A stretch of 56,192 nt of DNA, taken from positions 1 to 56,192 of the IMG/VR virus record IMGVR_UViG_3300008113_000177; one strand, 5' to 3'. The notes beneath the pieces are model-generated. The model had not been told where the DNA came from, did no database searches, and saw only the letters and a program-made list of their open reading frames with translations. Source of the stretch: a virus. Positions within the stretch are counted from its first letter, which is position 1. The number at the start of each line of letters is the position of its first letter. The position numbers and the translations under genes were made by a program. Of the stretch, positions 1,827-55,958 are shown piece after piece.

Positions 1827-1870
1827 ATTGTACAGTATAAGCACGTTATGCCAGTGTGAACAATTTCACG
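1827..1870 (-). promoter_or_regulatory. Leftward early promoter with CRP/GlxR-like operator (site D)
   Basis: TGTGAACAATTTCACG at 1855-1870 is a near-perfect TGTGA-N6-TCACA inverted repeat. On the leftward strand a TACAAT -10 box lies at 1827-1832, 33 bases from the operator centre, with a poor -35; a TATACT at 1834-1839 is an alternative. The same arrangement occurs at three right-end promoters with 34-base spacing. Such spacing equals class II activator placement around -42. Confidence 0.6.
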
Positions 1871-3278: not shown

Positions 3279-4574
3279 TCAGACTTGCTTATTTATCTCG
3301 TGCTGAATACGCTTTTCAGCTATCTTGAGATACTCTTCGTCAAGCTCACAGCCTATAAAGTTTACACCTTCAAGCATTGCTGCCTTACCAGTAGTACCAC
3401 TACCCATAAAGGGGTCTAATACTGTACCCCCACGTCTAGTTACCATTCGTACTAGATAACGCATGAGGTCGGTAGGCTTTACTGTTGGATGGTGGTTTGC
3501 AGCTACGCTGTCGTTGCGCTGGTAGGCTGTCTCGTTACGTACTTCTCTACCATCATGTGAATATTGCTTAGGTTCTAGGTCTTCAAGTCCTTCGTTACGG
3601 TCACGCTTATTTGATTTAGAGCAGTAGAAGAAACGTGCAGCTGAACCACTTGATGTATCGCTGGCTAGTCGTTTTGGCGATGTAGGCTTACCGTTATTGT
3701 TAAAGTGCCTAGCACCATCAGTTTGTACCCAGGCTCCACCCTTAGTGTCAGGGAATAGGTCTAAGACCTCTTGTGAGCCATCATGTATGAAGTTAGCTCC
3801 CCATCTGCCTAATGGGTTAGCAGGATTAGCACCTGATAGGTCACTGCTGTTCTTCCACGAGTTGTCCATTACGCCACCACGCTCACGTATCTTATCTACG
3901 CCAGCAGATAACTTATTGAAGTCATCTTCATCCATAGGAACACGTGTAGCATCGATGTTGATAGCACCTACACCCCACTTGAGTACGTTATTAGTTACTG
4001 TACCCTCTAGTGGCTTACGTGCCATAGTGATTGGCTCAGAGGCGGGTTTAAGAGCTGTCCCCCAGCCTTGCCAATTCTTTGCTTCATCAGTAAGTGGTTC
4101 GTATGGAGTGACCTCATTACTGGTCAACTTGTTCTCTTTATCGACGTCTGAAGCTTGATACGTAGACGCTGTAGGGATTGCTCTACCCCGATTAGGGTGA
4201 CCAAATGACTTGTCTATGGCACAACTTACGTTATGAGATTTAGGGAATCCGCTACTGTAGACCCAAGCAATCATGTCACGTATTTCAAACCCAGCATCTT
4301 CGATGTTGACAGCCATTCGATGCTGCGTACGAGTACCTGCAAACGATAGGAGGTAACCACCAGGCTTGAGTACACGTAGGCATTCACGCCATATCTCAAC
4401 GGAAGGTACGTCATAATCCCACTTCTTGGACATGAAGGATATACCGTACGGTGGGTCAGTAACAATAGAGTCTATGCTGTTATCTGGGTACGTCTTTAGG
4501 GTGTCTAAGCAGTTGCCAAGATGTAATTGAAATCGTGGAATATCACCAGTTTGTAATTGTGTAGGGTCTACCAT
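3279..4574 (-). CDS. Site-specific DNA methyltransferase (N6-adenine or N4-cytosine type, beta class)
   Basis: The 431-residue protein has the catalytic motif TDPPYGISF at about residues 39-47 and the S-adenosylmethionine motif LDPFMGSGTTGKA near 391-403, in the circularly permuted order of beta-class enzymes of the N4/N6 methylase family. A long target-recognition region lies between, about residues 110-340. DPPY is more usual for adenine than cytosine methylation. The likely role is to mark phage DNA against host restriction. No cognate endonuclease is next to it. It overlaps the Tad2-like gene upstream and is the last gene of a three-gene leftward operon. Confidence 0.9.
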   Translation of the reverse strand: MVDPTQLQTGDIPRFQLHLGNCLDTLKTYPDNSIDSIVTDPPYGISFMSKKWDYDVPSVEIWRECLRVLKPGGYLLSFAGTRTQHRMAVNIEDAGFEIRDMIAWVYSSGFPKSHNVSCAIDKSFGHPNRGRAIPTASTYQASDVDKENKLTSNEVTPYEPLTDEAKNWQGWGTALKPASEPITMARKPLEGTVTNNVLKWGVGAINIDATRVPMDEDDFNKLSAGVDKIRERGGVMDNSWKNSSDLSGANPANPLGRWGANFIHDGSQEVLDLFPDTKGGAWVQTDGARHFNNNGKPTSPKRLASDTSSGSAARFFYCSKSNKRDRNEGLEDLEPKQYSHDGREVRNETAYQRNDSVAANHHPTVKPTDLMRYLVRMVTRRGGTVLDPFMGSGTTGKAAMLEGVNFIGCELDEEYLKIAEKRIQHEINKQV

Positions 4575-4783
4575 ACTGGTTCTTCTACTACAATCCAGTC
4601 ATCAGCAAAGAAACAATCTTGTGGAAGAGTAAGGGACTCCATCATAGTCTCTGCTTCTGGTGTCTTCATAACAAAGCAGTTGAAGCCTTCTGACCACCTA
4701 AGTAGCAGTTGGTCACTACCCCAGTGAACACGACTTACGACCTTGCCATACACAATATCTTTATGGATTTCCCCAAATGTCAT
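4568..4783 (-). CDS. Tad2-like (DUF2829) protein, putative anti-Thoeris factor
   Basis: The 71-residue protein starts MTFGEIHKDIVYGKVVSRVHW and ends with FADDWIVVEEP. This follows the DUF2829 layout: an MxFGEA-like start with a GK-V-R-W segment, a central FVMKT strand, and a D-x-x-A-x-DW close. Tad2, the studied member, binds and sequesters the cyclic ADP-ribose signal that activates Thoeris immunity. Whether this copy binds a signal is inference. It sits three bases after DUF5872 and overlaps the methyltransferase, so all three are probably one transcript of counter-defence genes. A second DUF2829-like protein is at 43506. Confidence 0.75.
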   Translation of the reverse strand: MTFGEIHKDIVYGKVVSRVHWGSDQLLLRWSEGFNCFVMKTPEAETMMESLTLPQDCFFADDWIVVEEPVW

Positions 4784-5705: not shown

Positions 5706-5718
5706 GAGGAGTACAGTG

Positions 5719-8226: not shown

Positions 8227-8460
8227 TTAGTCTTCTTTGTTGGCAAGTTGCTTTGAAACATAATCTGCATATTCAAGGGCGAGTTTCATTTGAGACCTAG
8301 CGTTAGGTTCGTAGCCTTGCTTCTTGTAGATGTTCTGAAGGTGATAGTGAACAGTTCGTTTAGAGATTAGTAGCTTTTCGCCTATCTCATTTACTGTCAT
8401 CCTGTCTATTGCCATAAGATTCAAAATAGTGTGTTCTTTAGGCGTTAGGTTGTCATACAT
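8227..8460 (-). CDS. LuxR/GerE-type helix-turn-helix protein (77 aa)
   Basis: Nearly the whole protein is one GerE-like DNA-binding domain: LTPKEHTILNLMA near residues 5-17, MTVNEIGEKLLISKRTVHYHLQNIYKKQG near 21-49. There is no receiver or sensor domain. Free-standing GerE domains usually act as small transcription factors; the target is unknown. It overlaps the gene upstream by eight bases, and AGGAGAGCAAGG precedes the ATG. The pair forms a leftward two-gene operon ending opposite the dut operon. Confidence 0.85.
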   Translation of the reverse strand: MYDNLTPKEHTILNLMAIDRMTVNEIGEKLLISKRTVHYHLQNIYKKQGYEPNARSQMKLALEYADYVSKQLANKED

Positions 8461-43960: not shown

Positions 43961-44061
43961 TTACGTCCCTCCGCATACTGCCCTATCACGTATCCTATAC
44001 CCAAAAAGCAACACACTATCGCTAAAATGATGACACCTACGATGGTTATAAATATGGTCAT
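43957..44061 (-). CDS. 34-aa single-span membrane protein
   Basis: The frame from ATG at 44061 to TGA at 43957 exactly fills the gap, with TAATG overlap upstream and ATGA overlap downstream. AGGAGCGACTA is an excellent ribosome-binding site. Residues 2-29 are nearly all hydrophobic (TIFITIVGVIILAIVCCFLG), ending QYAEGRK. It is a membrane peptide with two adjacent cysteines. Function unknown; its conservation in an operon is suggested only by tight packing. Confidence 0.7.
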   Translation of the reverse strand: MTIFITIVGVIILAIVCCFLGIGYVIGQYAEGRK

Positions 44062-44291
44062 TAGTCGCTCCTATTTGCAAATCCCCTACTACCTAGAATA
44101 ACTTCTGCTTCCTTGATGTTGCGACAACCCATCGTCTTGTATGCACGATACAAAAGGTCATCAAGGGTTCGTATCTTCAACCCTAGTCTCTCAGCTGCTT
44201 CTGCCCTGGTCTTTGATTCTGCTACCGTCATAATCACGTGTCGTTGCCAGTTGGACACACGCTTGTATCCTGTTCGGATTGATACATCCAT
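44061..44291 (-). CDS. Small HTH protein of GerE-like type (76 aa)
   Basis: The segment TRAEAAERLGLKIRTLDDLLYRAYKTMG near residues 28-55 has the helix-turn-helix spacing of LuxR/GerE domains (A-x-x-L-x-x-x-x-x-T-L-D-x-x-L-Y-R-A). A start WQRHVIMTVAES gives a helix in front. It overlaps the dnaB stop (TAATG). It may autoregulate the replication operon. It is less canonical than the protein at 8227. Confidence 0.7.
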   Translation of the reverse strand: MDVSIRTGYKRVSNWQRHVIMTVAESKTRAEAAERLGLKIRTLDDLLYRAYKTMGCRNIKEAEVILGSRGFANRSD

Positions 44292-45667
44292 TAGAGACTT
44301 CCTTCTGGAATATCAGCGAAACGTGCCACACGTTTGTGGAACTCGATTCGTGATACTCCAATAGACCCATTGCGGTTTTTCGCTGTTATCACTTCTGTCT
44401 CGGAAGGCATATCTTCGTCCCAAGCATTCCTATCTTCAGCGTAATAGTCTGGTCTATACAGAAATTGTACCACGTCAGCATCTGACTCAATATCCCCGGA
44501 CTCTCGTAGGTCTGACATGATTGGTCGCTTGTCATTACGCTGTTCACTTGCACGTGAGAGTGACGATAGAGCTATGACCGGGATACTAAACTCTTTGGCT
44601 ATGGACTTCAACCCTCTGCTCAGTACGCCAATATCACGTGTCCTACCTTGCGTCTCCTTGCCTGTATCCAGCATCTGTAGATAGTCAACGACAAGCATAG
44701 AGAGTGTGCCTCTGCGCTGCATATCACGAGCCTTAGCCCTGATGCTCTGAATGGTCACAGGAGTCTCTGTTGAGAAGTAAAGGGGTAATGTGTCCACCTC
44801 ACGTTGTGTAGCCTCCATACGGTCACGCTCGCCCTTAGAGAAGTAGCTGTTGTGAAGTGCTTGACCGTCTACGTTTCCTATTATCTGTAAGAGCCTCTGA
44901 CTAATCATGTCCTGTGACATCTCTACGCTGATGAAGAGCGCACCTCCACCACCATCCGCCTTGCACTGCCTTGCTGCGTTGATTGCATACTGTAGCCCAA
45001 GGGATGACTTACCCATAGAAGGTCTGCCACCAAGGATGATTAGTTCACCTTCTTTGAATCCGTTGATTACCTTATCGATATCAGCAAAGCCTGTAGGTAT
45101 GCCCTTCTTGCGACCGTTGAGGATACCTAAGATGCTTTCACGTAGCACATCACCTGCGCTTGATACTACGTTGGTTGCATTCTTTATCTCAGTACCCTTA
45201 GCAAAGTCTAGGGTGATTACCTCAGGGTCAATCTCACCTTGCTGCGCCCTGAGCATAGCGTACTCAGAGTTGACTACAATATTCCTAAGCTCGTGGTATC
45301 TCTTGACCTTATTGGCATACGTTACAGCGGTTGATGTAGTGAACTCCATATCACCTAACTGCATCAGATATGCCAAGCCACCTATGAGGTCTATCTGGTT
45401 ATGGTTAGTTAGGTCATCATTGAGTAGGACGATGTCGCAACTACCTTGCGTCTGAGCAACCACTCGCTTCATAGATGAATAGACAGCTTGGTTACCAGGG
45501 CGATAGAACATCTGTTCGTTGACGATATGCTCTACATCATCAAGAACCTTCTTGCCCCCAAGAAGGATAGTCCCAAGAAGGGACATCTCCACCATAGGGT
45601 CGAACGGGTAATACCCATCCTTCTTGCGTGATGATAGTTCAGATACACGCTTCTCAACTTCTGTCAT
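44291..45667 (-). CDS. dnaB: Replicative DNA helicase DnaB
   Basis: The 458-residue protein unwinds DNA at the fork as a hexamer. Walker A is GGRPSMGKSS near 213-222, Walker B region is MLVVDYLQMLDTG near 323-335, then ALSSLSRASEQRNDKRP and DLRESGDIESDADVV, typical of RecA-type motif 3 and 4 in DnaB. The N-terminal domain (about 20-120) has the partner-binding helices. ATGA overlap with the gene upstream couples it to the putative loader. Confidence 0.96.
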   Translation of the reverse strand: MTEVEKRVSELSSRKKDGYYPFDPMVEMSLLGTILLGGKKVLDDVEHIVNEQMFYRPGNQAVYSSMKRVVAQTQGSCDIVLLNDDLTNHNQIDLIGGLAYLMQLGDMEFTTSTAVTYANKVKRYHELRNIVVNSEYAMLRAQQGEIDPEVITLDFAKGTEIKNATNVVSSAGDVLRESILGILNGRKKGIPTGFADIDKVINGFKEGELIILGGRPSMGKSSLGLQYAINAARQCKADGGGGALFISVEMSQDMISQRLLQIIGNVDGQALHNSYFSKGERDRMEATQREVDTLPLYFSTETPVTIQSIRAKARDMQRRGTLSMLVVDYLQMLDTGKETQGRTRDIGVLSRGLKSIAKEFSIPVIALSSLSRASEQRNDKRPIMSDLRESGDIESDADVVQFLYRPDYYAEDRNAWDEDMPSETEVITAKNRNGSIGVSRIEFHKRVARFADIPEGSL

Positions 45668-46161
45668 TCTGAGATTGCCTTCACTTCAGGCTTGACATCA
45701 ATCTGTACAAGGTTCTGAACCGTATCGTTTGCGTCCTTCGTCCAGTCACGTAGTGCTGAGGTAAGCTTATCTCTATCCATCTTCCCTGCGACTTGCCATC
45801 CACCGATGTACTTGACAGCAACGATATCAAAGGGATGCAGGTCACCATCTGTCAGCCACTCAACCTCACGCTCTGAACGCATCTTAGGATGGACATCTGA
45901 GAGGAACCGGCAGATGCGATTGAACATCTGAATGACGGATGTTTCACCACACCGGATGCCACGTACCCTTCGAAGGATTGCAGCTGGACTAGGACGGAAG
46001 TCCTCAGTCTTCAACATATCGATGACTACGTCAATAGCCGTCTTATCGTCTACATCTTTGAGGGAAAGAGCGTAGCCTACCGCAACGCCATCATCCCATC
46101 GCTGTTGTGCTGGCATAGCACTAAGGATGCCAGCAACTGTACCAAACGCCTTATCAGTCAT
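45664..46161 (-). CDS. Putative helicase loader (165 aa)
   Basis: The ATG at 46161 is chosen because GGGAGAACTACT precedes it, overlapping the end of the previous gene by eight bases. The sequence begins MTDKAFGTVAGILSAMPAQQRW and has SPAAILRRVRGIRCGE near 57-72, helical throughout. It lies directly before dnaB in an ATGA-coupled pair, as loader genes do in several phages (G39P-type proteins). No ATPase motif is present, so it would be a non-AAA loader or inhibitor. Function is inferred from context. Confidence 0.6.
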   Translation of the reverse strand: MTDKAFGTVAGILSAMPAQQRWDDGVAVGYALSLKDVDDKTAIDVVIDMLKTEDFRPSPAAILRRVRGIRCGETSVIQMFNRICRFLSDVHPKMRSEREVEWLTDGDLHPFDIVAVKYIGGWQVAGKMDRDKLTSALRDWTKDANDTVQNLVQIDVKPEVKAISE

Positions 46162-46555
46162 AGTAGTTCTCCCATTCCTCTCCACTTGCATACGACTCAA
46201 ACTTTGCTTCCACATAACGGTCAATCTCTGGTTGAATCTCTTCATTAATCCAGTGACTAATCATGTCAAGTACTTCCTCCTCATCCATTGGAGGCGCACC
46301 TGTTTGTTGCCATTCTTCATCTGTCACTTCGATAGCCCACTTGACTTTCTCAACCCACTCATCACCATCCTTCAATAACTCAGGGTCGATTGGCTCTTTG
46401 CGGAATATCTTCCTTGCTTGTTCCAAGACCTTATCAGTTATGATGCAGTGGTACGTGACAGTGAGATTGGACTCATCATCCTCTCTCTCACCCTCGCCAA
46501 GCAGTTGGTCTGGAAGTGTCCAGCCAACGTGTGTGTACATATCGATGTCTATCAT
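46154..46555 (-). CDS. Acidic early protein (133 aa), unknown
   Basis: It begins MIDIDMYTHVGWTLPDQLLGEGE and is very acidic, with WINEEIQPEIDRYVEAKFES in the C-terminal helical part. The leader reads AGGAGGTAGGT directly before ATG. It is the first gene of a transcript starting at a strong promoter at 46576-46603. Acidic composition could mimic DNA, but there is no other evidence. Family not recognised. Confidence 0.72.
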   Translation of the reverse strand: MIDIDMYTHVGWTLPDQLLGEGEREDDESNLTVTYHCIITDKVLEQARKIFRKEPIDPELLKDGDEWVEKVKWAIEVTDEEWQQTGAPPMDEEEVLDMISHWINEEIQPEIDRYVEAKFESYASGEEWENYYD

Positions 46556-46575
46556 ACCTACCTCCTATGCCAAGT

Positions 46576-46603
46576 ACTTTACCACAATACACCGTACTGT
46601 CAA
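46576..46603 (-). promoter_or_regulatory. Sigma70-type promoter of the dnaB operon
   Basis: Leftward TTGACA at 46598-46603 and TAAAGT at 46576-46581 with a 16-base spacer, just upstream of the AGGAGGTAGGT leader of the gene starting at 46555. The -35 sits in the last codons of the initiator gene. Confidence 0.65.
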
Positions 46604-47463
46604 GACATATTCCTAACGAACTTCATTACATCCTCAGCTGATGTTGCGTGGTCTCGTGTCGAAGCTTTCTTGAGAGGTGTTCCGATGGTCGTAGTAAGTT
46701 GCGTTGCAGTTGACCAGTGTTTCCATACAGAGTTGATTGTGACCATATCTGCGTTGCCCCACTTGTTGGTGAGGTTCTGGCAAGCATTCACCAGGGTCTC
46801 ACCACTAATACCTTTGTTGACCATCTGGTAGAGGATGAAGTAAACGGACTTCCATTCAGTGACGTTGAAGTCAGATGCCTGTAGTGATGGATACTTCCAT
46901 TCCCTGAATGCTACGTAAAGCTCACGTGCTGGGTCATCATCCTTTGGAAGGGATACCTTTGAGCGTTTCTTTGTTGGAGCCTTTGGCTCAACAGCCTCTG
47001 GTACAGAGGATATATAGTTAATTGATTCTTGTTCTAATTGTTTCTTGTTAATTGGGGTACTAATTTCTTTACCCTCCCCCCTATAAGATTCTTTACCCTC
47101 CCCCTCCAAAATACTTTCCCCCTGATAGCCGGGAAGGATGATGTATTCGTTACTTGTTTGACGTCCTTCTTGGAACCTCATGCGACGTGATACAACCTTA
47201 CATCCTTCAATCTCTTTTGTCTCTAGCCCTGCGATTGCTGCACGTATCGTAGGTGCTGATAAGCCTGTTGACTTCATTAGTCTAGGGATAGATGGGAAGC
47301 ACACACCTTCTTGGTCAGCGTGTAATGAGATAGCGCAGAACACCATCCATTCACTTGACGTGAACTTATTCATATGCTGGAGTATGCGGTGTTCAAGTTG
47401 CACAAAAGAACTATGTTCGGACGTACGTAAGCTACGTGTCCTACCGTTGAATATTGTAATCAT
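46600..47463 (-). CDS. Replication initiator with N-terminal HTH and internal iterons (287 aa)
   Basis: Residues about 35-82 form a winged-helix/HTH of the replication-initiator type: TSSEWMVFCAISLHADQEG, then PSIPRLMKSTGLSAPTIRAAIAGL. A low-complexity linker (about 112-140, GEGKES and RGEGKEI) follows, and the C-terminal domain (175-287) is helical with AFREWKY and VWKHWSTA. The linker DNA carries iteron-like repeats, the layout of lambda O. It would bind them and recruit the DnaB/loader pair encoded downstream. CTATAAAGGTAGG-like leader (TAGGTAGGCAAC) precedes the ATG. Confidence 0.78.
   Translation of the reverse strand: MITIFNGRTRSLRTSEHSSFVQLEHRILQHMNKFTSSEWMVFCAISLHADQEGVCFPSIPRLMKSTGLSAPTIRAAIAGLETKEIEGCKVVSRRMRFQEGRQTSNEYIILPGYQGESILEGEGKESYRGEGKEISTPINKKQLEQESINYISSVPEAVEPKAPTKKRSKVSLPKDDDPARELYVAFREWKYPSLQASDFNVTEWKSVYFILYQMVNKGISGETLVNACQNLTNKWGNADMVTINSVWKHWSTATQLTTTIGTPLKKASTRDHATSAEDVMKFVRNMS
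47050..47137. other. Iteron cluster inside the initiator gene, candidate origin
   Basis: Leftward strand: GGGAGGGTAAAGAA twice and GGGGGAAAGTATTTT once, followed by AGTACCCC, within codons of about 109-137. The neighbouring bases 47008-47062 are AT-rich. The same elements occur at 5252-5332. In lambdoid phages the origin lies within the initiator gene in this manner. Confidence 0.65.
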
Positions 47464-47568
47464 GTTGCCTACCTATAAAGCGAATATTCCCCTCAGTTAA
47501 TGTGCTTCAGGGAATAGGACTATATCACATACGATTAGATACACCTTGTATCCGTTCGCCTATGTATC

Positions 47569-48021
47569 TCATGTGTTTAGTGTCTTCTCCCATCTTGCTT
47601 TCCTACACGTTGGTTGGTCTGTCCTACGTGGCTTGCCATCTGTATGTGACCATAACCCACCTTGTGTCATAGCCACCATAGTCCAACCAGATGCCTTGAG
47701 TGTCGTACCAAGTTCGTCTTCTAAGATATACGTTTGTATCTTCTTGTAGCCGATAGCTTTACCAGCACGTGCAGCTGCCCCATACAGTATTGAACAGGCG
47801 TTGAACGTGCCATCTGTAACCAAACGTGTGACTTCAAGGACTTCTGAATAGTTGATGGCTCGTGCTACTGGACGTCCTACGATACAAGCTCCACGTAATA
47901 CTCCATCAGCGTCTACGCATCCGATAGAGAACCTATGACCACGTGCAGGTTTGTGATGCCTATGGTGTAGTTCAACGAATGCGTTTGCTTGCTTTAGTTC
48001 AAGGGAGACTATCTTTAACAT
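47569..48021 (-). CDS. GNAT-like protein of the XF1762 type (150 aa)
   Basis: The ATG at 48021 follows GGAAGGACAAGTA and overlaps the upstream stop as TAATG. NAFVELHHRHHKPARGHRF near residues 13-31, then GRPVARAINYSEVLEVTRL and ACSILYGAAARAGKAIGYKKIQTY resemble a phage family I recall as XF1762, which is related to acetyltransferases by the GAAARA-x-x-x-G-Y segment. The HHRHHKP motif is unusual. Substrate is unknown. It lies in the recombination operon. Confidence 0.75.
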   Translation of the reverse strand: MLKIVSLELKQANAFVELHHRHHKPARGHRFSIGCVDADGVLRGACIVGRPVARAINYSEVLEVTRLVTDGTFNACSILYGAAARAGKAIGYKKIQTYILEDELGTTLKASGWTMVAMTQGGLWSHTDGKPRRTDQPTCRKARWEKTLNT

Positions 48022-48569
48022 TACTTGTCCTTCCTGAAAGGACACTCGTCACATAGTGACGTGCAGTTGTTAGCCTGGTGAAGAACCGCATTCGCTTCAG
48101 ATACAGACATACCTTTAGGGACGCTCACCTGCTCTATATTATTCTTAGGTAATGGTTCACCACGTACCTCTTCCATCAAGGTAGTGATAGTCCAATCTTC
48201 AGCCTTTGCCCGTTTTAGTAACTCTGTCTGCTTCTCAGGGTCAAGCTTTGCTACAACCCGGTGATGTGTCCAGCTAAGACCTGCGACACGCCTATCTTTA
48301 TCAACTGCCTTGCTAACCCATACATAGTTAGCGAGTGACTGATACGACTGCCCTGTCACGTCAACAGCTTGAGCGTAGCGTTCACCATAACGGCTTTCAC
48401 CATAGAGGAGTGCATCCCCTATGGCGAACTGGAACGCCGTATCCATACGACTGAGAGTACCCATAAGGGTTGACCATTGGTCAAAGGACAACTCCTTGAC
48501 AACAGACAACCCTGTTTCACTTATGGATACAGAATCGGTAAGGCTACCGATATGTACCACTTCACTCAT
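48021..48569 (-). CDS. ParB-like helical DNA-binding protein (182 aa)
   Basis: Residues about 28-120 (FDQWSTLMGTLSRMDTAFQFAIGDALLYGE, RYGERYAQAVDVTGQSY, LSWTHHRVVAKL in parts) match a helical domain seen in many phages and actinobacterial proteins, with a helix-turn-helix that resembles ParB or LmbU-type proteins. The C-terminus has CTSLCDECPF, three cysteines that may hold metal. The role may be gene regulation or DNA binding; partner unknown. ATGA overlap with the gene upstream. Confidence 0.68.
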   Translation of the reverse strand: MSEVVHIGSLTDSVSISETGLSVVKELSFDQWSTLMGTLSRMDTAFQFAIGDALLYGESRYGERYAQAVDVTGQSYQSLANYVWVSKAVDKDRRVAGLSWTHHRVVAKLDPEKQTELLKRAKAEDWTITTLMEEVRGEPLPKNNIEQVSVPKGMSVSEANAVLHQANNCTSLCDECPFRKDK

Positions 48570-48805
48570 AGCTTGAATCCTACAAACATATTGAACTTCT
48601 GAGCCAAAGTCTTAGGTGTCCTATCCTTTGTTGCATAAACCTCTTTTGTCAGTAGGTTAATCGTCTGGTCTAACTTCTCAAGGACGTTTGATACAGGGAA
48701 CTGAGGTTGCCCTGTCTTTAGTTCTTCATTCACCTGGATGCAATGAGCCTTAGCCCTAAGTTGCACTAGTCCTTCAAGCACATTCTCAAGCTCACTTCGT
48801 CTCAT
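48566..48805 (-). CDS. Small helical protein in the recombination operon (79 aa)
   Basis: ATG at 48805 is used because GGAG lies eight bases upstream; it overlaps the end of the Gp157-like gene by 14 bases. The protein begins MRRSELENVLEGLVQLRAKA and is helical, with NVLEKLDQTINLLTKEVYA. No cysteine cluster. Family not recognised. Tight overlaps on both sides suggest coupled translation. Confidence 0.7.
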   Translation of the reverse strand: MRRSELENVLEGLVQLRAKAHCIQVNEELKTGQPQFPVSNVLEKLDQTINLLTKEVYATKDRTPKTLAQKFNMFVGFKL

Positions 48806-49382
48806 CTTTAGTCTCCATAAGCGTTTTGATGGTGATGCTTTCTCCACCTTCCACTACAGCAAACCCGAATGCTTCAGCACTTGATGGGTCACTCAACAAC
48901 TTAGCCTTCACTGAATCTGGAACCATAGATATAAGTACAGATTCCTGTACCTTGATAGCCTGTGGACATTCCAACTTTGCGAATGCTAGTGCAACATTAG
49001 ATGTCATTACCTTTATCGTTGGTGTTGTCGTACGTTGACCGATAGTCCCGAATGGGCATCGATACGTCTTGCTACGAAGGTTGCCTTCCTTATCTCTAGG
49101 GAGGAGTGTGTTTGCTACCTTTGCAGCTTGACCTTCATACATAGCCCTAAGGTAAGTGACCTTAGACTTATGACGCTTGACCATCTTATTGATGTTCTCT
49201 AAGACAGACTTGTACTTCATCTCTTCTGCTGCAGCACGTGTCTCAGCGTCAAGAAGGATTCTCATATACTTGAGAAGGTCTTCTTCACCTTCAAGGATTG
49301 AGGGGAGGTCTCTCCCCGTTGGTCCCGCATACTCGCCTGTCTCATCATCAAACAGGTCACCGTCAATCTCAATAATAGCCAT
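48792..49382 (-). CDS. Gp157-like protein (196 aa)
   Basis: The long helical segment AETRAAAEEMKYKSVLENINKMVKRH followed by YLRAMYEGQAAKVA, then a beta-rich domain with TYRCPFGTIGQRTTTP, is the plan of Siphovirus Gp157-like proteins. These occur near recombination genes and have been linked to resistance to phage infection in Streptococcus. Here it lies just downstream of the ERF gene. The TAGG leader GAAAGGTAGGTAGGTATG is complete. Confidence 0.8.
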   Translation of the reverse strand: MAIIEIDGDLFDDETGEYAGPTGRDLPSILEGEEDLLKYMRILLDAETRAAAEEMKYKSVLENINKMVKRHKSKVTYLRAMYEGQAAKVANTLLPRDKEGNLRSKTYRCPFGTIGQRTTTPTIKVMTSNVALAFAKLECPQAIKVQESVLISMVPDSVKAKLLSDPSSAEAFGFAVVEGGESITIKTLMETKDETK

Positions 49383-49396
49383 ACCTACCTACCTTT

Positions 49397-50137
49397 CTAT
49401 TCGTTCGCTTCCAAACATCCAGTGATGAATACATCTGCCTCTGCTTTGTCTTTGCATTCAGACAAACAATCTGCTACGTGTGATAGTGAATCCTTTGTGA
49501 TAGGAACCTCTGAACCGCCAGCTGCGACAGCGTTGTGGATTCCCTTACGGTCAGCCTTAGATGTCTCTTTACCCCAGAGCCTATCAATCTCTGCGTTGAA
49601 CCTATCCAATGGTGCAGGTACTGTTGGCGCAGGTGTCTTAGGTGCTTGCTTTTGTGGAGTCTGCGGCTGTCGCAAAGGTTGTTGTGGAGCCTGAGATTGA
49701 TTCTGGTATCCACTAGCATTGTTGCCGTCATCATCCGTATCTGATGCTTCACCGATAGCCAAGAGTGCAGACAAGCTATATCTGCGCCCATAAGTAATAG
49801 CAGAGCCTACTCGATGTGCATCTACTGGCTGTACCTTGCCATCCCTGTTAATGATAGGGTTGACTGGTACAGATACTTCATTAGCAATCCACTCACCACT
49901 AGCATGAATCAACGTGGAGCGAACAGTAATCTCGCTATCAGTATGGCTTTGCACTGACTGTGACAAGAAGATGTTGTACTGACTAAGTACTGGACGAACA
50001 GACAGTAGAATGCTATCAAGCGTGATGTATTTACTACGGAAAATAGGGTTGTTGCCATCCTTTGCAACACCATTAATGCCAGCCTGAACCTTCACAAGGT
50101 CAGGTGCAATACTAGACAACGAATCTGAATGAAACAT
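49397..50137 (-). CDS. erf: ERF-family single-strand annealing protein
   Basis: Residues about 10-140 contain the ERF pattern: LVKVQAGINGVAKDGNNPIF, then AHRVGSAITYGRRYSLSALLAIGEASDTDDDGN (in parts VGSAITYGRRY and SLSALL). ERF proteins form rings that anneal complementary strands in phage recombination. A Gln/Pro-rich linker (145-175) connects to a C-terminal helical domain. AAGGGAG precedes the ATG and a sigma70-type promoter lies 23-50 bases upstream. Confidence 0.9.
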   Translation of the reverse strand: MFHSDSLSSIAPDLVKVQAGINGVAKDGNNPIFRSKYITLDSILLSVRPVLSQYNIFLSQSVQSHTDSEITVRSTLIHASGEWIANEVSVPVNPIINRDGKVQPVDAHRVGSAITYGRRYSLSALLAIGEASDTDDDGNNASGYQNQSQAPQQPLRQPQTPQKQAPKTPAPTVPAPLDRFNAEIDRLWGKETSKADRKGIHNAVAAGGSEVPITKDSLSHVADCLSECKDKAEADVFITGCLEANE

Positions 50138-50159
50138 ATGTTTTCTCCCTTACGTAGAA

Positions 50160-50188
50160 AGTGTACTCCAAGAATACTGTATTGTCAA
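50160..50188 (-). promoter_or_regulatory. Sigma70-type promoter of the ERF operon
   Basis: Leftward TTGACA at 50183-50188 and TACACT at 50160-50165 with a 17-base spacer, followed by AAGGGAG and the ATG at 50137. The -35 overlaps the last codon of the upstream gene. Confidence 0.7.
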
Positions 50189-50835
50189 TAATCCATCTTA
50201 GACAAAAGAAGTTCTTCTTCATCATCATCTGGGTAGAGGTTTGAGATTTCCTCAAGGTTGAATGGTGATTCAGTATCCTGGAGTATGAGGAAGTCAGCTT
50301 GTGAATAAATCTTTGTGACTGGGATGTATTCAAGTATCATCGCTGGGTTGAGCATAGCCTCTTCAGGGTTATCGCTCGTATCCTTTATGACGCCTAATGC
50401 GTGTTCTATATCAGCTGATACTACTTGATGTGGCTTGCCGTTGATTAGTCTATGGACGCATCCAAGCTTGCCATCCTGTACCTTTGCCACCCGGTAAACA
50501 AACCCGCCAAAGTCTGGTGTAAGTCTGCCATCTGGTGCATCTGTAGGGCAGGTACATAGTGTTCCATTACATCCTAGTGCCTGTACCTTACGTCCGTTGT
50601 ATTCAAAGAAACGGTAACGATTCATCAAGGTACGAAGTTGTATTCTTGTGTTGTACTCGATGCCGTTCTGCGTTACTTCATCATCAAAGATAACTGCATA
50701 TCGCCATCCATCCTTCTCTGACTCTTGTATGAGATTGATACCCTCTATGGTCTCCATATTGACCCATACGTAGTCTCCACCTGTCTTCTGGAACACGTAG
50801 TCCCAACAATCAATACTTGGTTTCAAATAGCCCAT
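50185..50835 (-). CDS. Protein of unknown function (216 aa)
   Basis: ATG at 50835 follows GTGGAGGCAAACT and overlaps the nuclease gene upstream by 26 bases. It begins MGYLKPSIDCWDYVFQKTGG and has TLCTCPTDAPDG near 94-105, with three to four cysteines, and an acidic C-terminus rich in Asp and Glu (LYPDDDEEELL). The fold looks mixed alpha-beta. No family recognised. Position in the recombination operon suggests a DNA-related role at most. Confidence 0.65.
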   Translation of the reverse strand: MGYLKPSIDCWDYVFQKTGGDYVWVNMETIEGINLIQESEKDGWRYAVIFDDEVTQNGIEYNTRIQLRTLMNRYRFFEYNGRKVQALGCNGTLCTCPTDAPDGRLTPDFGGFVYRVAKVQDGKLGCVHRLINGKPHQVVSADIEHALGVIKDTSDNPEEAMLNPAMILEYIPVTKIYSQADFLILQDTESPFNLEEISNLYPDDDEEELLLSKMDY

Positions 50836-51232
50836 AGTTTGCCTCCACAAATCTTGTAATCTTATCTACGGTTGTCCAGTTGTTAAGTTCTGCCTCAACC
50901 CTTGATATAACCAATAGAACCTCTTCGGTAGAACGACAGATTGTCGTATACCCAGCATCTGCTATCTTTTGCTGTATCTCAGATGCCTTACCTTTCGCAG
51001 CCTTCAGTTCGATAGCTACTGCTTTGCTGCCCCATAGATGGTGTGACGAATGTATGTACAAGTCTGGTAGCCCTGGTGTGTTACCCTGATAGCCTGTCGC
51101 ATAACTGTACGCACCACATTTAGTGCATCTAACCTTAGTTCTAGTCTTCCCTGTTTCAAAGACTTTGTAACCTAGCACCATCAAAGTATCTATCACTTGT
51201 TTTTGTAGTGCTGCTTCAGGCTTAATCCTCAT
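50810..51232 (-). CDS. VRR-NUC nuclease (140 aa)
   Basis: The core reads NTPGLPDLYIHSSHHLWGSKAVAIELKAAKGKAS near residues 50-83: the aspartate of PD, then E-L-K, as in the PD-(D/E)XK superfamily VRR-NUC branch, with QQKIADAGYTTICRS after it. An insertion CTKCG near 36-40 adds a CxxC. Such small phage nucleases cut branched or single-ended DNA. It overlaps the gene upstream by eleven bases and is part of the recombination operon with ERF. Confidence 0.88.
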   Translation of the reverse strand: MRIKPEAALQKQVIDTLMVLGYKVFETGKTRTKVRCTKCGAYSYATGYQGNTPGLPDLYIHSSHHLWGSKAVAIELKAAKGKASEIQQKIADAGYTTICRSTEEVLLVISRVEAELNNWTTVDKITRFVEANYGLFETKY

Positions 51233-51782
51233 GCGTAACTCTCCATACGTATTGTGCTACGCTTGCAGTAATGGGAGCTTTGAGCATATCTATCTTCCTG
51301 AGTGCCATCTTAAATGCTGTAGGTGTTGGCGCACGTTTACATAATTCAAAGAGACTCTCGTTGTTTTGGATAATCTCTAACCCATTCTTCATAGGTTGTG
51401 TTGGATTCACGATAGGCGTAGTAAACTCCTCAAGGGTTGCATAGTTACGCTTTTGATTCACCTTATCTATGAACTTAACAACCTTCCCACCTGTGATGGA
51501 TACGTCATAAATGGTTGTCCATCCAAAGTCTCCATTTAGAAATGCGATGATATCCTTCTTAGTCCAGTGATGACTTACCTGTCTACGGAACTGACTAACT
51601 AGCACGTGTACCCTGCCTGTCATCCGCTGCTTCATCATGTTGTATTGGATACCTCTCGCTTCCTGTATGGCATCCTCTTTACTTTCAAAGTATCTGGTAA
51701 TGCTGCCCCAACGTAGCTGAGTTACGTGTGCATAGTTACCTCTACCGAAAATGGGCTTGCGTCCCGTTTTAGTTTCTGCCAT
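51222..51782 (-). CDS. Basic protein of unknown function (186 aa)
   Basis: The start follows GAAAGGAATAGATAGATAGATAG, where tetranucleotide repeats separate the ribosome-binding site from the ATG. The protein begins MAETKTGRKPIFGRGNYA and contains WTKKDIIAFLNGDFGWTT near 73-90 and a helical C-terminus FKMALRKIDMLKAPITAS. It is basic and may bind nucleic acid, but no family is recognised. It is the first gene of the nuclease operon. Confidence 0.7.
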   Translation of the reverse strand: MAETKTGRKPIFGRGNYAHVTQLRWGSITRYFESKEDAIQEARGIQYNMMKQRMTGRVHVLVSQFRRQVSHHWTKKDIIAFLNGDFGWTTIYDVSITGGKVVKFIDKVNQKRNYATLEEFTTPIVNPTQPMKNGLEIIQNNESLFELCKRAPTPTAFKMALRKIDMLKAPITASVAQYVWRVTHED

Positions 51783-51833
51783 CTATCTATCTATCTATTC
51801 CTTTCGTGCGAACTGGTTTCAGAACTGGTTTCA
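51781..51833. repeat. Compound repeat: ATCT microsatellite and 12-base direct repeat
   Basis: Four units of ATCT at 51781-51797 overlap the start codon of the 186-aa gene. Then GAACTGGTTTCA occurs at 51810-51821 and 51822-51833. The same combination lies at 55906-55958. Confidence 0.7.
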
Positions 51834-51849
51834 AAAAGAGAAAACGGAC

Positions 51850-51972
51850 TCACCGCTTGCCTGAAAAGACAAGGGTGAATCCGATTACTAGTAAACCAAT
51901 CGCTAAAGGTACATATCCCATAAACAGGGTAGACCATCCTAGGAAACAAACAAAGCTTCCAGTCTGCCTCAT
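51850..51972 (-). CDS. 40-aa membrane protein
   Basis: ATG at 51972 overlaps the upstream stop as ATGA; TGA ends at 51850. The sequence MRQTGSFVCFLGWSTLFMGY followed by VPLAIGLLVIGFTLVF is nearly all hydrophobic and would span the membrane once or twice, ending SGKR. It lies before the compound repeat. Too short to assign. Similar tiny membrane proteins fill gaps at 828, 13623 and 43957. Confidence 0.62.
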   Translation of the reverse strand: MRQTGSFVCFLGWSTLFMGYVPLAIGLLVIGFTLVFSGKR

Positions 51973-52205
51973 GAATACAATCCCTTTACATTCTTCGCAT
52001 AATCGATAGCTTTGTGTACTAGATTCCACATATGCACACTATCCGTATGTGTGTACAGATACTCTGCGACCTTCGATGCATCCTTATCCTGGAGTGTTGC
52101 ATCAGCTATCTTGTATTCATCTGGTGAGAATGCCTCTATATGGCATTCGGGGAACATCTGCCTGAGACGTTCCAATTCAGCGTTAAATAACTTTTGATTG
52201 AACAT
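51969..52205 (-). CDS. Small early protein (78 aa), unknown
   Basis: The TAGG leader (AAGGTAGGTAGGTATG) precedes the start. It begins MFNQKLFNAELERLRQMFPE and is helical, with SKVAEYLYTHTDSVHMWNL. A leader hairpin lies upstream at 52228-52255. Family not recognised. Coupled to the 40-aa membrane protein. Confidence 0.75.
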   Translation of the reverse strand: MFNQKLFNAELERLRQMFPECHIEAFSPDEYKIADATLQDKDASKVAEYLYTHTDSVHMWNLVHKAIDYAKNVKGLYS

Positions 52206-52227
52206 ACCTACCTACCTTAGGGAATGA

Positions 52228-52255
52228 ATACCTGTACCAGAAATGATACAGGTAT
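52228..52255 (-). other. Leader hairpin upstream of the 78-aa gene
   Basis: ATACCTGTA at 52228-52236 pairs perfectly with TACAGGTAT at 52247-52255 around ten bases. It lies between the stop at 52267 and the TAGG leader, as in the other leader hairpins. Confidence 0.7.
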
Positions 52256-52266
52256 ATGTAAACGTA

Positions 52267-52827
52267 TCAGCAGCCTACCGCTGTTACCAAACGTCCAGCG
52301 ATACATTCTTTGATTTCCATACGTGAGTATGCACCAGCTAACTCAATTTGTTGAATGATTCGTTGCATACCATCCCTACCGTAACGGAATGTGATACTTT
52401 CCAAATGACTATTCTTATCAAATTGGAATAATGCATGATTGTGGATATCACCATTCCCATAGACTGAGATTTCTATGTCTAAGCTTCCATCTAGAGGATT
52501 CTTTAATCCTATACTTACAGATTCGATGTCAAGGATATGTTTCCAAAACATAACACGTATATCGTCCAACTGTACCGAATGACGTTTGATGCCATATTGT
52601 GCATAAACGGCATCTGTCACATTATCGATACTTTCATTCCATACCGTATCTCCACCAGCGAATACGCCTATGGTGTTAGGTAATTCCATCACCTGGTGTT
52701 TACTATCATCTACGAATGCGTGATAGAGCTTGAATGGGATACTTTCCCTTTCACATACCGCTATCTGTTCCAACATATCCGACGCTGAGATTTGGTCGAT
52801 ATCGACCGATTCAATTCTGATTTCCAT
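52267..52827 (-). CDS. Early protein (186 aa), unknown
   Basis: The leader GGAGTAGGTAGGTAGCT precedes the start at 52827. It begins MEIRIESVDIDQISASDMLE and contains YHAFVDDSKHQVMELPNTIG, a GIKRHSVQLDDIRVMFWKH helix and a beta-rich segment. No cysteine cluster (three Cys) or membrane helix. Family not recognised. It is one of the longer proteins of the small-gene region. Confidence 0.75.
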   Translation of the reverse strand: MEIRIESVDIDQISASDMLEQIAVCERESIPFKLYHAFVDDSKHQVMELPNTIGVFAGGDTVWNESIDNVTDAVYAQYGIKRHSVQLDDIRVMFWKHILDIESVSIGLKNPLDGSLDIEISVYGNGDIHNHALFQFDKNSHLESITFRYGRDGMQRIIQQIELAGAYSRMEIKECIAGRLVTAVGC

Positions 52828-52837
52828 AGCTACCTAC

Positions 52838-53167
52838 CTACTCCTTTACTAAACCTTTGTGTGTGTCCCATACAGCGATAAGAATGTCTGCATCTGAGTA
52901 TTCTTCGGTATTATTCAAGTCTGCTACCAGTCTGATAAATTCTCGTTGCCAGACTTCAGCGTGACCCAGATGTTTACATTTGTATAACTCGAATACCATA
53001 TCGACGAATTGCCGTACAGACATAATCGTCGCATAGCTCGTCAAGTCTGGTAGCGTAACGTGAAGGGATGATATTACATCATCCATTTCTATCTTGTATC
53101 CACCTAACGCAATTACCTTTGCCAAGCTCACCAATTCAACATTTGTGAATGTCTTAGATATATTCAT
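52838..53167 (-). CDS. Small early protein (109 aa), unknown
   Basis: A complete GAAAGGTAGGTAGGTATG leader. The protein begins MNISKTFTNVELVSLAKVIA and is helical, with FVDMVFELYKCKHLGHAEVW and ADILIAVWDTHKGLVKE. No family recognised. Ten bases separate it from the next gene. Confidence 0.75.
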   Translation of the reverse strand: MNISKTFTNVELVSLAKVIALGGYKIEMDDVISSLHVTLPDLTSYATIMSVRQFVDMVFELYKCKHLGHAEVWQREFIRLVADLNNTEEYSDADILIAVWDTHKGLVKE

Positions 53168-53181
53168 ACCTACCTACCTTT

Positions 53182-53382
53182 CTATTCTTCGTCCCTATCA
53201 TCATTCGTACCCATATGTTCTTCGATGATTTCGTCATTCTCAAACAGGTAAACCGATTCACCAGCTACCCTGCCATACCCTGATGTCGATAACTCAACGT
53301 ACGATTTGTATGATTCCTGGGCTAATTGACGTGACGCATATTCGCCTATTTTGCCTACGTTACCTACGATAACTGTATACAT
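53182..53382 (-). CDS. Small early protein (66 aa), unknown
   Basis: The ATG at 53382 is preferred because AGGAGAATAGGT precedes it; an upstream in-frame ATG at 53412 lies inside the previous gene. It begins MYTVIVGNVGKIGEYASRQL, like a small alpha-beta fold, and ends in an acidic tail (GTNDDRDEE). Family not recognised. Confidence 0.72.
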   Translation of the reverse strand: MYTVIVGNVGKIGEYASRQLAQESYKSYVELSTSGYGRVAGESVYLFENDEIIEEHMGTNDDRDEE

Positions 53383-53384
53383 AC

Positions 53385-53639
53385 CTATTCTCCTATCCCT
53401 GCATCGTCGCATACTGTCGCTGAAATAATGATGTTTGTACCTTTAGGGAATTCGATTGTGAAGGTATCACCATTCCAGCTGTAGTAATTATGTGTGTACG
53501 TGATACCTAGTGTGCGCTTGACCTTGCGTACAATCGCTGCATCTGAAGCTTTACCCGTATGCTTTACAGTCTTACGTACAACCCAGCTGTAATTTGGCAC
53601 GTCACAAAACGTATCTGTCATTTCTATACTGAGATTCAT
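53385..53639 (-). CDS. Small early protein (84 aa), unknown
   Basis: Leader GAAAGCGAGTAGGT precedes the start. It begins MNLSIEMTDTFCDVPNYSW and includes KASDAAIVRKVKRTLGITYTHN, a mixed fold with aromatic-rich strands (NYYSWNGDTFTIEF). Two cysteines. Family not recognised. Confidence 0.73.
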   Translation of the reverse strand: MNLSIEMTDTFCDVPNYSWVVRKTVKHTGKASDAAIVRKVKRTLGITYTHNYYSWNGDTFTIEFPKGTNIIISATVCDDAGIGE

Positions 53640-53641
53640 AC

Positions 53642-53935
53642 CTACTCGCTTTCTTCGTCTGTATCGTCTGATTCTTCGGACAATTCGGCAGCATCGTTTA
53701 CAGACTTGGCTATCTCATTCCAATCTACGCTAGACATAAAGCTCCCAACGATATCGCCTATGAATCCTTGGAATACGTTACGTACGGAATTCTCTAGGTA
53801 TTCTTCCACCATTTCCTTGCACCATCCGGCATCGATAGCGTATCCATTTTCCTTGGCTACATCATGCATATCATCGCCAAACCATAGGTTAACCTGCCAC
53901 GTATCTTTATTCGTCCAGCCGTTATAACTTTCCAT
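53642..53935 (-). CDS. NGWTN-x-TW protein (97 aa), recurrent phage family of unknown function
   Basis: The start MESYNGWTNKDTWQVNLWFGDD has the pattern NGWTN-x-x-TW-x-V-x-LW, which recurs in small proteins of actinophages and other phages, usually annotated as unknown (possibly DUF7249). The C-terminus is acidic (ELSEESDDTDEESE). Full GAAAGGTAGGTAGGTATG leader. Its presence in actinophages weakly supports the host inference. Confidence 0.78.
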   Translation of the reverse strand: MESYNGWTNKDTWQVNLWFGDDMHDVAKENGYAIDAGWCKEMVEEYLENSVRNVFQGFIGDIVGSFMSSVDWNEIAKSVNDAAELSEESDDTDEESE

Positions 53936-53937
53936 AC

Positions 53938-54189
53938 CTACCTACCTTTCCCTGCTGGCATAAAACCTGCCACATAATCAGCGATACTCTTATCTGTGAG
54001 ATTGTACAAACCATAATCAATATCGGAACGAATATCATCTACATCTGATACGCTCCAAAGCTCATTTTCATCTGTGAATACTGCATCAAGATTGTTTGTA
54101 ACGTCATACACTTGGATGCTACACAATCCACGTTCCTGCCAGATGTTCACAGAGAAAATCCTGCCATCGTTTACATTAACTAATGCCAT
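53938..54189 (-). CDS. First gene after promoter B, unknown (83 aa)
   Basis: Full GAAAGGTAGGTAGGTATG leader and a promoter with an operator at 54211-54255. It begins MALVNVNDGRIFSVNIW and continues with short strands (GLCSIQVYDVTNNLD) and an acidic middle. No family recognised. It heads a run of closely spaced leftward genes down to 52267. Confidence 0.76.
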   Translation of the reverse strand: MALVNVNDGRIFSVNIWQERGLCSIQVYDVTNNLDAVFTDENELWSVSDVDDIRSDIDYGLYNLTDKSIADYVAGFMPAGKGR

Positions 54190-54210: not shown

Positions 54211-54255
54211 AGTCTACCAGAGTGTACGGTAGTGTGATGTGTGAGATATTGCACA
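54211..54255 (-). promoter_or_regulatory. Early promoter with CRP/GlxR-like operator (site B)
   Basis: TGTGAGATATTGCACA at 54240-54255 (TGTGA-N6-GCACA) is the operator; leftward TAGACT at 54211-54216 is the -10, 34 bases centre to centre. Conserved ACTACCGTA lies between. It drives the gene starting at 54189. Confidence 0.6.
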
Positions 54256-54267
54256 CTACCTACCTAC

Positions 54268-54561
54268 CTATCGTCTGATTGTTTTACTTAGTAACGATTG
54301 TTCCATAAATAGATGCAGCATATCGATATCCTCTGCGATGGTATAGCCTACACCAGCTTTATAGTCGTGTTTCCATACCTCAGCTAGATTCTGTACCCTA
54401 CACACTTCGTATGAGCGTGGTTCCCTAAGCTCACCGATACTTTCAGCGATAGATTCTAGCTGTTGAATACGTTTACTCTTATCCTGGATTGTATGTAAAT
54501 CCCTGATATCTGAAAGGATGTCGAATACGCGTTCCTTGCGTGTCAAATTACCTATTACCAT
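54268..54561 (-). CDS. Small early protein (97 aa), unknown
   Basis: ATG at 54561 is chosen over one at 54621 because GGAAAGTAGGTAGGAT lies immediately upstream. It begins MVIGNLTRKERVFDILSDIR and is helical, with KRIQQLESIAESIGEL. Single-cysteine. It ends about 10 bases before the operator of promoter B. Family not recognised. Confidence 0.73.
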   Translation of the reverse strand: MVIGNLTRKERVFDILSDIRDLHTIQDKSKRIQQLESIAESIGELREPRSYEVCRVQNLAEVWKHDYKAGVGYTIAEDIDMLHLFMEQSLLSKTIRR

Positions 54562-54565
54562 AATC

Positions 54566-54877
54566 CTACCTACTTTCCTGAATACGTATGCTGGCAGCCT
54601 GTACATGAGCGTATGCGTCACCCTTTATAGGGTAAAGCTTCAGATAGTTACGGGTACGCATTAACTTGACGTCAAACCTACCTACTACACTTCCATTCCA
54701 TCCGTCACGCTGAATTACTACGATGTGATTTCCATTGTATGCATGACGTGAGTAGAATGGTAATTCGTTATTTGCTACCTCGAAATCCTTCAAGCTCTTA
54801 TATTCTCTGAATATCCTAACACCACGATTTGATGCATAATCAGCAGCAGATGATGCCACATGAATGTCTAACGTCAT
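54566..54877 (-). CDS. Small basic early protein (103 aa), unknown
   Basis: Full GAAAGGTAGGTAGGT leader. It begins MTLDIHVASSAADYASNRGV and contains a beta-rich middle NHIVVIQRDGWNGSVVGRFDV and a basic end. There is no cysteine. It is preceded by the leader hairpin at 54898-54929. Not recognised. Confidence 0.75.
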   Translation of the reverse strand: MTLDIHVASSAADYASNRGVRIFREYKSLKDFEVANNELPFYSRHAYNGNHIVVIQRDGWNGSVVGRFDVKLMRTRNYLKLYPIKGDAYAHVQAASIRIQESR

Positions 54878-54897
54878 AACCTACCTACCTTTCATCT

Positions 54898-54929
54898 GGT
54901 AGGGTATCCAACGGTATGAATACCCTACC
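54898..54929 (-). other. Leader hairpin upstream of the 103-aa gene
   Basis: GGTAGGGTAT at 54898-54907 pairs perfectly with ATACCCTACC at 54920-54929 around twelve bases. The 3' arm also complements the TAGG leader just downstream, so an alternative pairing could mask the ribosome-binding site. Confidence 0.7.
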
Positions 54930-54937
54930 TGCTATCA

Positions 54938-55243
54938 TTACCTGTACAAATCACCGGGATTCTGTACGCTATCGCGCATTTCTTCGAATGTCTTATCCTT
55001 TAGCTGGACGTTTGTAATGAATGCGTGTACCCGTTTGGTATCAGCTGATTTCAATTTGCTGCTATTCATTATCAAATCCATAATGTCATTCGGTACGTCG
55101 ATACCAGCATACAATCTGCCATTCGTTACGCTATATGATGTGAATACTACGTGTTTAACAGCTTTCCTGCGTTCCGTACAAACGCATATACCTATGGCAT
55201 CATTCATCTGTACGAATAGAATTCCGCTGACGTTTACTTTCAT
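54938..55243 (-). CDS. Small early protein (101 aa), unknown
   Basis: Leader GGATAGGTAGGTAGTT precedes the start. It begins MKVNVSGILFVQMNDAIGIC and shows a compact alpha-beta pattern, with TERRKAVKHVVFTSYSV and DIMDLIMNSSKLKS. Two cysteines in GICVC. Family not recognised. Two bases separate it from the gene upstream. Confidence 0.74.
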   Translation of the reverse strand: MKVNVSGILFVQMNDAIGICVCTERRKAVKHVVFTSYSVTNGRLYAGIDVPNDIMDLIMNSSKLKSADTKRVHAFITNVQLKDKTFEEMRDSVQNPGDLYR

Positions 55244-55245
55244 AA

Positions 55246-55458
55246 CTACCTACCTATCCTTTCCTTGACACAAGTACTTGCGTTCAAATCGTATAGTAAT
55301 ATTGTCTTATTCGGGAATTGTTCAGCTATGGAATCAAACGCATTCATAGCATCATCCAAAGTTTCACACGCGCATTTGACACCATTACCGACAACCCAAA
55401 TACTAAAGCTCGCCCAAACGGATTTTGATGCTAGGCATCTGCATTCTTCTAACGTCAT
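55246..55458 (-). CDS. First gene after promoter A, unknown (70 aa)
   Basis: Full GAAAGGTAGGTAGGT leader; promoter at 55481-55525. It begins MTLEECRCLASKSVWASFSI and has five cysteines (ECRCL, KCACE, STCVK), which could bind metal or form a redox site. Family not recognised. Confidence 0.73.
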   Translation of the reverse strand: MTLEECRCLASKSVWASFSIWVVGNGVKCACETLDDAMNAFDSIAEQFPNKTILLYDLNASTCVKERIGR

Positions 55459-55480
55459 AACCTACCTACCTTTCAATAAG

Positions 55481-55525
55481 AGTATACTACGCTATACGGT
55501 AGTATGTAATGTGAGATATTCCACA
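55481..55525 (-). promoter_or_regulatory. Early promoter with CRP/GlxR-like operator (site A)
   Basis: TGTGAGATATTCCACA at 55510-55525 is the operator. Leftward TATACT at 55481-55486 is the -10 and TTACAT at 55504-55509 a -35 with 17-base spacer. Operator centre to -10 centre is 34 bases, as in sites B and C. Confidence 0.65.
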
Positions 55526-55798
55526 CTAGTCTGCGTCATTCCATAGCAGGATATCGCTGCAATTATCATCGTCGGATAGCACAATCCATCCTGTAGGTTT
55601 GTAGCCATTACGTTCCTCCAGCTGATTGTATATCGTGGCAGATTCCGGTGAATTTGGCATACGCTCAGATGCTGCCGGTTTATAGTACTGTTGCATTTTG
55701 CATAGTCGTTTGTATTCATTACTCCACATACCAGAATGGTAATGTGTGAAATACCAATAGTATCCTTGACATATCGCAAACCTATCGAATGATTCCAT
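55526..55798 (-). CDS. First gene after promoter C, unknown (90 aa)
   Basis: Leader GGAAAGGTAGGGTAGTTAGTT precedes the start. It begins MESFDRFAICQGYYWYFTHY and is aromatic-rich, followed by SNEYKRLCKMQQYYKPAASE and an acidic end (LSDDDNCSDILLWNDAD). Three cysteines. Family not recognised. Its stop is directly next to the operator of promoter A. Confidence 0.74.
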   Translation of the reverse strand: MESFDRFAICQGYYWYFTHYHSGMWSNEYKRLCKMQQYYKPAASERMPNSPESATIYNQLEERNGYKPTGWIVLSDDDNCSDILLWNDAD

Positions 55799-55828
55799 AA
55801 CTAACTACCCTACCTTTCCTACACATCT

Positions 55829-55873
55829 ATTCTACTACACTATCCGGTATCTAAGTATGTGAAGTATCTCACA
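55829..55873 (-). promoter_or_regulatory. Early promoter with CRP/GlxR-like operator (site C)
   Basis: TGTGAAGTATCTCACA at 55858-55873 has both half-sites perfect and TA at the centre, exactly TGTGANNTANNTCACA. Leftward TAGAAT at 55829-55834 is the -10; centre distance is 34 bases. It drives the gene starting at 55798. Confidence 0.68.
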
Positions 55874-55905
55874 CTATCTATCTATCTAACTATCTAAACT
55901 TTGCG

Positions 55906-55958
55906 TCTATCTATCTATCTATCTATCTATCTGCGGAACTGGTATTGGAACTGGCATC
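55906..55958. repeat. Compound repeat: CTAT microsatellite and 12-base direct repeat
   Basis: Nearly seven CTAT units at 55906-55932 are followed by GGAACTGGTATT at 55935-55946 and GGAACTGGCATC at 55947-55958. A shorter CTAT run lies at 55873-55898. The same combination occurs at 51781-51833. Confidence 0.75.

Follow-up and report, generated by a model that had tools for sequence, protein, structure and literature searches.

A conserved composite promoter with a CRP-like operator precedes presumed early genes in one group of uncultured phages

Three promoters of an uncultured phage share a composite architecture, in which a CRP/GlxR-like operator lies at a fixed distance from the −10 box and a second conserved element occupies the spacer. 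The window analysed is a 56,192-base IMG/VR virus record with 44% GC. Direct inspection of the sequence placed operators exactly at 54240-54255, 55510-55525 and 55858-55873, as the initial annotation had described, each with 0-1 mismatch to the TGTGANNTANNTCACA-type palindrome (TGTGA-N6-TCACA with a TA centre) and each followed by a −10 box 34 bases away, centre to centre. All three promoters, termed P1, P2 and P3, read the minus strand. We propose that a host-supplied activator of the CRP/FNR family acts at this composite, sigma-70-type early promoter, together with a repressor at the spacer element, a reading to which we assign a probability of roughly 0.45. The elements and the genes that follow them are:

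55858..55873, minus strand: P1 operator, a GTG-N8-CAC dyad, TGTGAGATACTTCACA on the minus strand (site also given as TGTGAAGTATCTCACA)
55843..55849, minus strand: P1 spacer element TACCGGA, from the promoter alignment
55829..55834, minus strand: P1 −10 box TAGAAT, 34 bases centre to centre from the operator
55526..55798, minus strand: first small gene after P1, 90 aa, no family match
55510..55525, minus strand: P2 operator, TGTGGAATATCTCACA (site also given as TGTGAGATATTCCACA)
55495..55501, minus strand: P2 spacer element TACCGTA, from the promoter alignment
55481..55486, minus strand: P2 −10 box TATACT, 34 bases centre to centre from the operator
54268..55458, minus strand: small genes after P2, of 70, 101, 103 and up to 117 aa, no family match
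54240..54255, minus strand: P3 operator, TGTGCAATATCTCACA (site also given as TGTGAGATATTGCACA)
54225..54231, minus strand: P3 spacer element TACCGTA, from the promoter alignment
54211..54216, minus strand: P3 −10 box TAGACT, 34 bases centre to centre from the operator
44291..54189, minus strand: early/replication genes downstream of P3

Counting TGTGA-N6-TCACA alone, with as many as two mismatches tolerated, gives no excess over chance in the window (28 observed against 41.8 expected). With a TA centre and at most one mismatch, only the P1-P3 sites are found, against 0.27 expected, a count reached in none of 300 first-order simulations. When TANNNT is also required at exactly 34 bases, the same three sites compare with 0.013 expected in 300 first-order simulations. 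The strength of the observation thus comes from the exact spacing to the −10 box rather than from the motif by itself, and the arrangement is far beyond chance.

We aligned 21 distinct copies of the promoter from nine contigs of one phage group, gathered largely through the spacer element TACCG(T/G)A; the copies are related, not independent. Going upstream, the layout comprises TANNNT at −12 to −7, a G at −13, TACCG(T/G)A at −27 to −21, no conserved −35 and the dyad TGTGnnATATCTCACA at −51 to −36. Most operator columns carry 1.0-1.7 bits of information, against mostly 0.1-0.8 at −33 to −28. The best consensus match lies at 34 bases in nearly all 21 copies, with loose variants at 32-33, and the operators of the relatives mostly show 0-2 mismatches to the TGTGANNTANNTCACA palindrome. 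TACCG(T/G)A is conserved more strongly than the operator, partly by construction because the alignment was gathered on it; promoters found through the operator alone also carry it, and operator-anchored searches of related contigs repeatedly recovered the same composite promoter, including TACC/TACT-G and the −10. The earlier description of a repeated operator at fixed spacing in presumed early promoters is upheld, but it had missed the spacer element.

The genes driven are small and differ between promoter copies, so the composite promoter is not one duplicated gene block. Recent duplication of a single promoter was likewise rejected, as flanks and spacers diverge while the elements are kept and the driven genes are unrelated. 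In all of IMG/VR, ten stretches have an operator with TANNNT 23 bases after it, and the only two outside the phage group (L232 and L233) carry no TACCG. The composite promoter is essentially confined in IMG/VR to this one group, and we are almost certain that it is real and conserved.

Position and gene content suggest that the driven genes are early. Downstream of P3 lie an 83 aa ORF, a DUF7249 protein, ERF, an HTH_36 replication protein and DnaB, and in relatives a P3-type operator also stands upstream of a DUF7249-type gene. The window as a whole encodes TerL, a P22-type portal, the DnaB helicase, the ERF annealing protein and the HTH_36 replication protein.

The −35 region bears on the role of the dyad. 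None of the 21 aligned dyad promoters has a perfect TTGACA, compared with three of four dyad-less TACCG promoters in the relative G006 (Fisher p 0.0017); these four were selected without reference to the −35 and come from a single phage. Several dyad promoters carry TTTACA (a 5/6 match) beside a perfect operator, so compensation for the −35 is not strict. Two TTGACA promoters in the window were left out of this count, having been located through their TTGACA:

50160..50188, minus strand: TTGACA-N17-TACACT upstream of the ERF gene, with neither operator nor TACCG element
46576..46603, minus strand: TTGACA-N16-TAAAGT, with no CRP-like operator

The G006 pattern favours a reading in which the dyad would be the site of an activator that replaces the −35, and we consider an activator role probable. 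With the −10 hexamer numbered −12 to −7, the operator is centred at about −43.5 and adjoins the −35 region without overlapping it. A canonical E. coli class II CRP site is centred near −41.5. Set against the class II geometry previously assigned to these promoters, the layout is activator-like and lacks a conserved −35, and its predicted centre lies some 2 bases upstream of the canonical position.

The phage dyad matches the consensus of C. glutamicum GlxR and of CRP. GlxR of C. glutamicum recognizes TGTGANNTANNTCACA and is usually an activator (PMC4254451); its regulon shares the consensus but drives cellular genes. In CRP-activated cyanobacterial promoters, TGTGA-N6-TCACA is followed by TAN3T after about 22 bp (PMC2633013), close to the gap of 23 bases in the phage promoters, but they too serve cellular genes and lack the TACCG element. 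Cyanophages (PMC3037559) and T1 (PMC6737242) provide known cases of phages using CRP-family regulators of their hosts. In cyanophages, sites for NtcA, a host CRP-family global regulator, occur as GTA-N8-TAC upstream of many genes, at 1-16 per genome, and were read as use of the host nutrient response (PMC3037559, Sullivan 2010). Those sites resemble the present ones as CRP-family-type sites before phage genes; they differ in having GTA/TAC rather than GTG/CAC half-sites and diverse target genes, whereas here the presumed early genes are small, the spacing is fixed at 34 bases and a second element lies in the spacer. In T1, host CRP acts on the pir promoter and couples the phage to the sugar state of the host (PMC6737242). 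There CRP inhibits one regulator gene, while the present phage repeats an activator-like site, whose binder would be a CRP-family protein, at several presumed early promoters.

That the window has no CRP-like gene, as noted before, holds: CRP-family HTH domains are absent from it and from the 16 related contigs (17 phage contigs in all). A search of 17 group records for an integrase came back empty, and a temperate-type gene set (integrase plus XRE-type repressor) was likewise not found. At least 80 relatives of the portal protein occur in IMG/VR, and portal alignment gave no relative or prophage in 84,980 bacterial and archaeal genomes; near relatives among GenBank phages were likewise absent. 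Neither a phage CRP-type HTH, nor an integrase, nor a bacterial portal relative was found; promoters of this kind, if early, must therefore rely on factors provided by the host. A CRP-family activator is our best single guess for the dyad. The proposal that early genes are placed under a host CRP-family regulator is partly supported, through operator, spacing and consensus; GlxR as the binder is unproven.

An unlikely but serious alternative is that the dyad is the operator of a regulator encoded by the group itself, either an activator or a repressor for early shut-off, rather than a site for host CRP. Such a regulator would equally produce an operator found essentially in this one phage group in IMG/VR, and the position of the dyad beside the −35 fits a repressor too. 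The group also encodes small HTH proteins that are candidate phage regulators: a 77-aa GerE/LuxR-type protein (8227-8460 in the window), present in 15 of 20 group records, and a weak sigma region 4-like protein at 44061-44291. However, the LuxR-type protein also occurs in relatives that yielded no such operator (G005, G008, G015 and others), whose early regions may lie off the contigs. A search for HTH_3 repressors yielded only one weak, sub-threshold match, the missing integrase in the 17 group records speaks against this alternative as well, and a weak −35 is unexpected for a repressed promoter.

Half-site recognition is common to several regulator families, which raises another host regulator with GTGA/TCAC half-sites, for example Rex or a BldD-like protein, as the binder of the dyad; we judge this improbable. 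A fourth site, noted in the initial annotation with 33 bases to a TACAAT, is relevant here:

1855..1870, minus strand: CGTGAAATTGTTCACA, a distinct, conserved site type at varying distances from the −10

The site is present, lies 33 bases from a −10 and is kept in three relatives (G001 at 57183, G002 at 5717 and G012 at 17940), but its core (TGTGWAATTGTTCACA, AATTGTT) differs from the P1-P3 operators and its distances to the leftward −10 are 33, 33, 44 and 56 bases, roughly whole helical turns apart. The different core and variable spacing mark it as a separate site type and not a fourth copy. Sites of this type (TGTGAAATTGTTCACA and variants) partly keep GTGAA-N4-TTCAC, and we take them to fit a Rex-like palindrome. 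The early-promoter consensus TGTG(G/C/A)AATATCTCACA, however, lacks GTGAA/TTCAC symmetry, and PF06971, the Rex N-terminal domain, was absent from six Planktophila-type genomes.

The initial annotation had proposed that an actinobacterial host CRP/GlxR may read cAMP at these promoters. We tested Nanopelagicales as a plausible host, given a phage that is taken to be from freshwater, has 44% GC and carries structural genes resembling those of actinophages; the freshwater habitat of the group is our assumption from IMG sample numbers. The genomes were reached with a 16S probe and match named Planktophila isolates, and we take them to be Nanopelagicales. A GlxR/Crp orthologue with a RETVNKAL-type recognition helix (SRETVNKAL) is found in 9 of 11 Nanopelagicales genomes over the cut-off, and in L123-L131 it stands beside an endonuclease III-like gene, presumably nth as assigned by eye. 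Against the proposal, TGTGA-N6-TCACA is no commoner, and mostly rarer, than a reversed control in 121 Nanopelagicales genomes, the operator motif shows no promoter enrichment in Planktophila versatilis, and class III adenylate cyclase was found in none of the six Planktophila-type genomes searched, with C. glutamicum positive as a control. Neither GlxR as the binder nor cAMP sensing gains support from these results, which cover one host order.

The signals for an actinobacterial host conflict. Portal and capsid matches are to actinophages, at about 22-25% identity; among named phages the portal matches reach only about 22% identity, and all but one are actinophages. ThyX and the DUF6321 protein point instead to cyanophages and pelagiphages, and WhiB, tried as an actinophage marker, was absent from 23 phage records. 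P. versatilis itself was rejected as the host: its dinucleotide distance to the phage is 0.147, on a scale where its own segments lie within 0.043 of its genome and a 49-kb E. coli stretch lies at 0.166, and the tRNAs of the phage relatives, used for this comparison, are 65-73% identical to its nearest tRNAs. The actinobacterial, cAMP-dependent reading of the dyad is unproven, and we give it little credence.

The spacer element may have a binder of its own. TACCG(T/G)A together with (G/A)GTA over the −10 gives TACC-N9-(G)GTA; the exact form TACC-N9-GGTA occurs in the window only at 54215-54231, at P3, and in G006 (L098, around 3134) the combined sequence is a perfect palindrome, ATACCGTTTCATACGGTAT. 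Because of its position over the spacer and the −10, TACCG-N7-(G)GTA is probably a repressor operator, and we treat it as a candidate. Promoters of the type TTGACA-NN-TACCG-N8-GGTA were also seen in other viral contigs (L311, L293, L253, L234 and others), twice each in L311 and L293, and possibly represent a widespread operator layout.

Returning to the host-supplied activator, we propose the following scheme, in which the early timing, the activation step, the CRP-family nature and host source of the regulator, and the repression at TACCG are all predicted. A dimer that recognizes DNA in the manner of CRP, most likely a host protein of the CRP/FNR family, would bind GTG-N8-CAC directly upstream of where the −35 is missing and recruit RNA polymerase. 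The first small genes (P1 and P2) and the early/replication operon (P3) would then depend on it for transcription. A second factor, probably a repressor, would bind TACCG-N7-(G)GTA in the interval from the −35 position to the −10 and could shut the same promoters off.

A broader reading, which we hold to be doubtful, is that a lytic freshwater phage lineage has tied its first genes to a host CRP-family global regulator, discarding the −35 and using the spacer operator for shut-off, so that lytic entry is gated by the nutrient state of the host. If the activator is a global regulator of the host, infection by these phages would hinge on the metabolism of the host as early as the first transcript. 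That would be a rare form of host sensing, open to testing, in a phage that shows no sign of lysogeny. Even if the phage encodes the binder, the 45-base composite promoter gives this uncultured group a recognizable signature of its presumed early promoters, compact and conserved, and implies two regulators.

Several further features were observed around these genes. A 71-aa protein (4568-4783), adjoining a DNA methyltransferase gene (3279-4574), has a sub-threshold match to Tad2-like proteins of Thoeris anti-defence. The ribosome-site block GAAAGGTAGGT is repeated before early genes at 779, 49387, 53172, 53940, 54194, 54883 and 55464; in G006 (L098) TTGGAGGGGTTCA, which resembles start-associated sequences, takes its place. 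The hairpin GGTAGGGTATTCATACCGTTGGATACCCTACC lies at 54897-54928, just upstream of the gene at 54566-54877, and similar AGGGTAT/ATACCCT repeats occur in G007 (L093). Finally, a TATC microsatellite at 55876-55932 directly precedes P1, and the relative G001 has one too.
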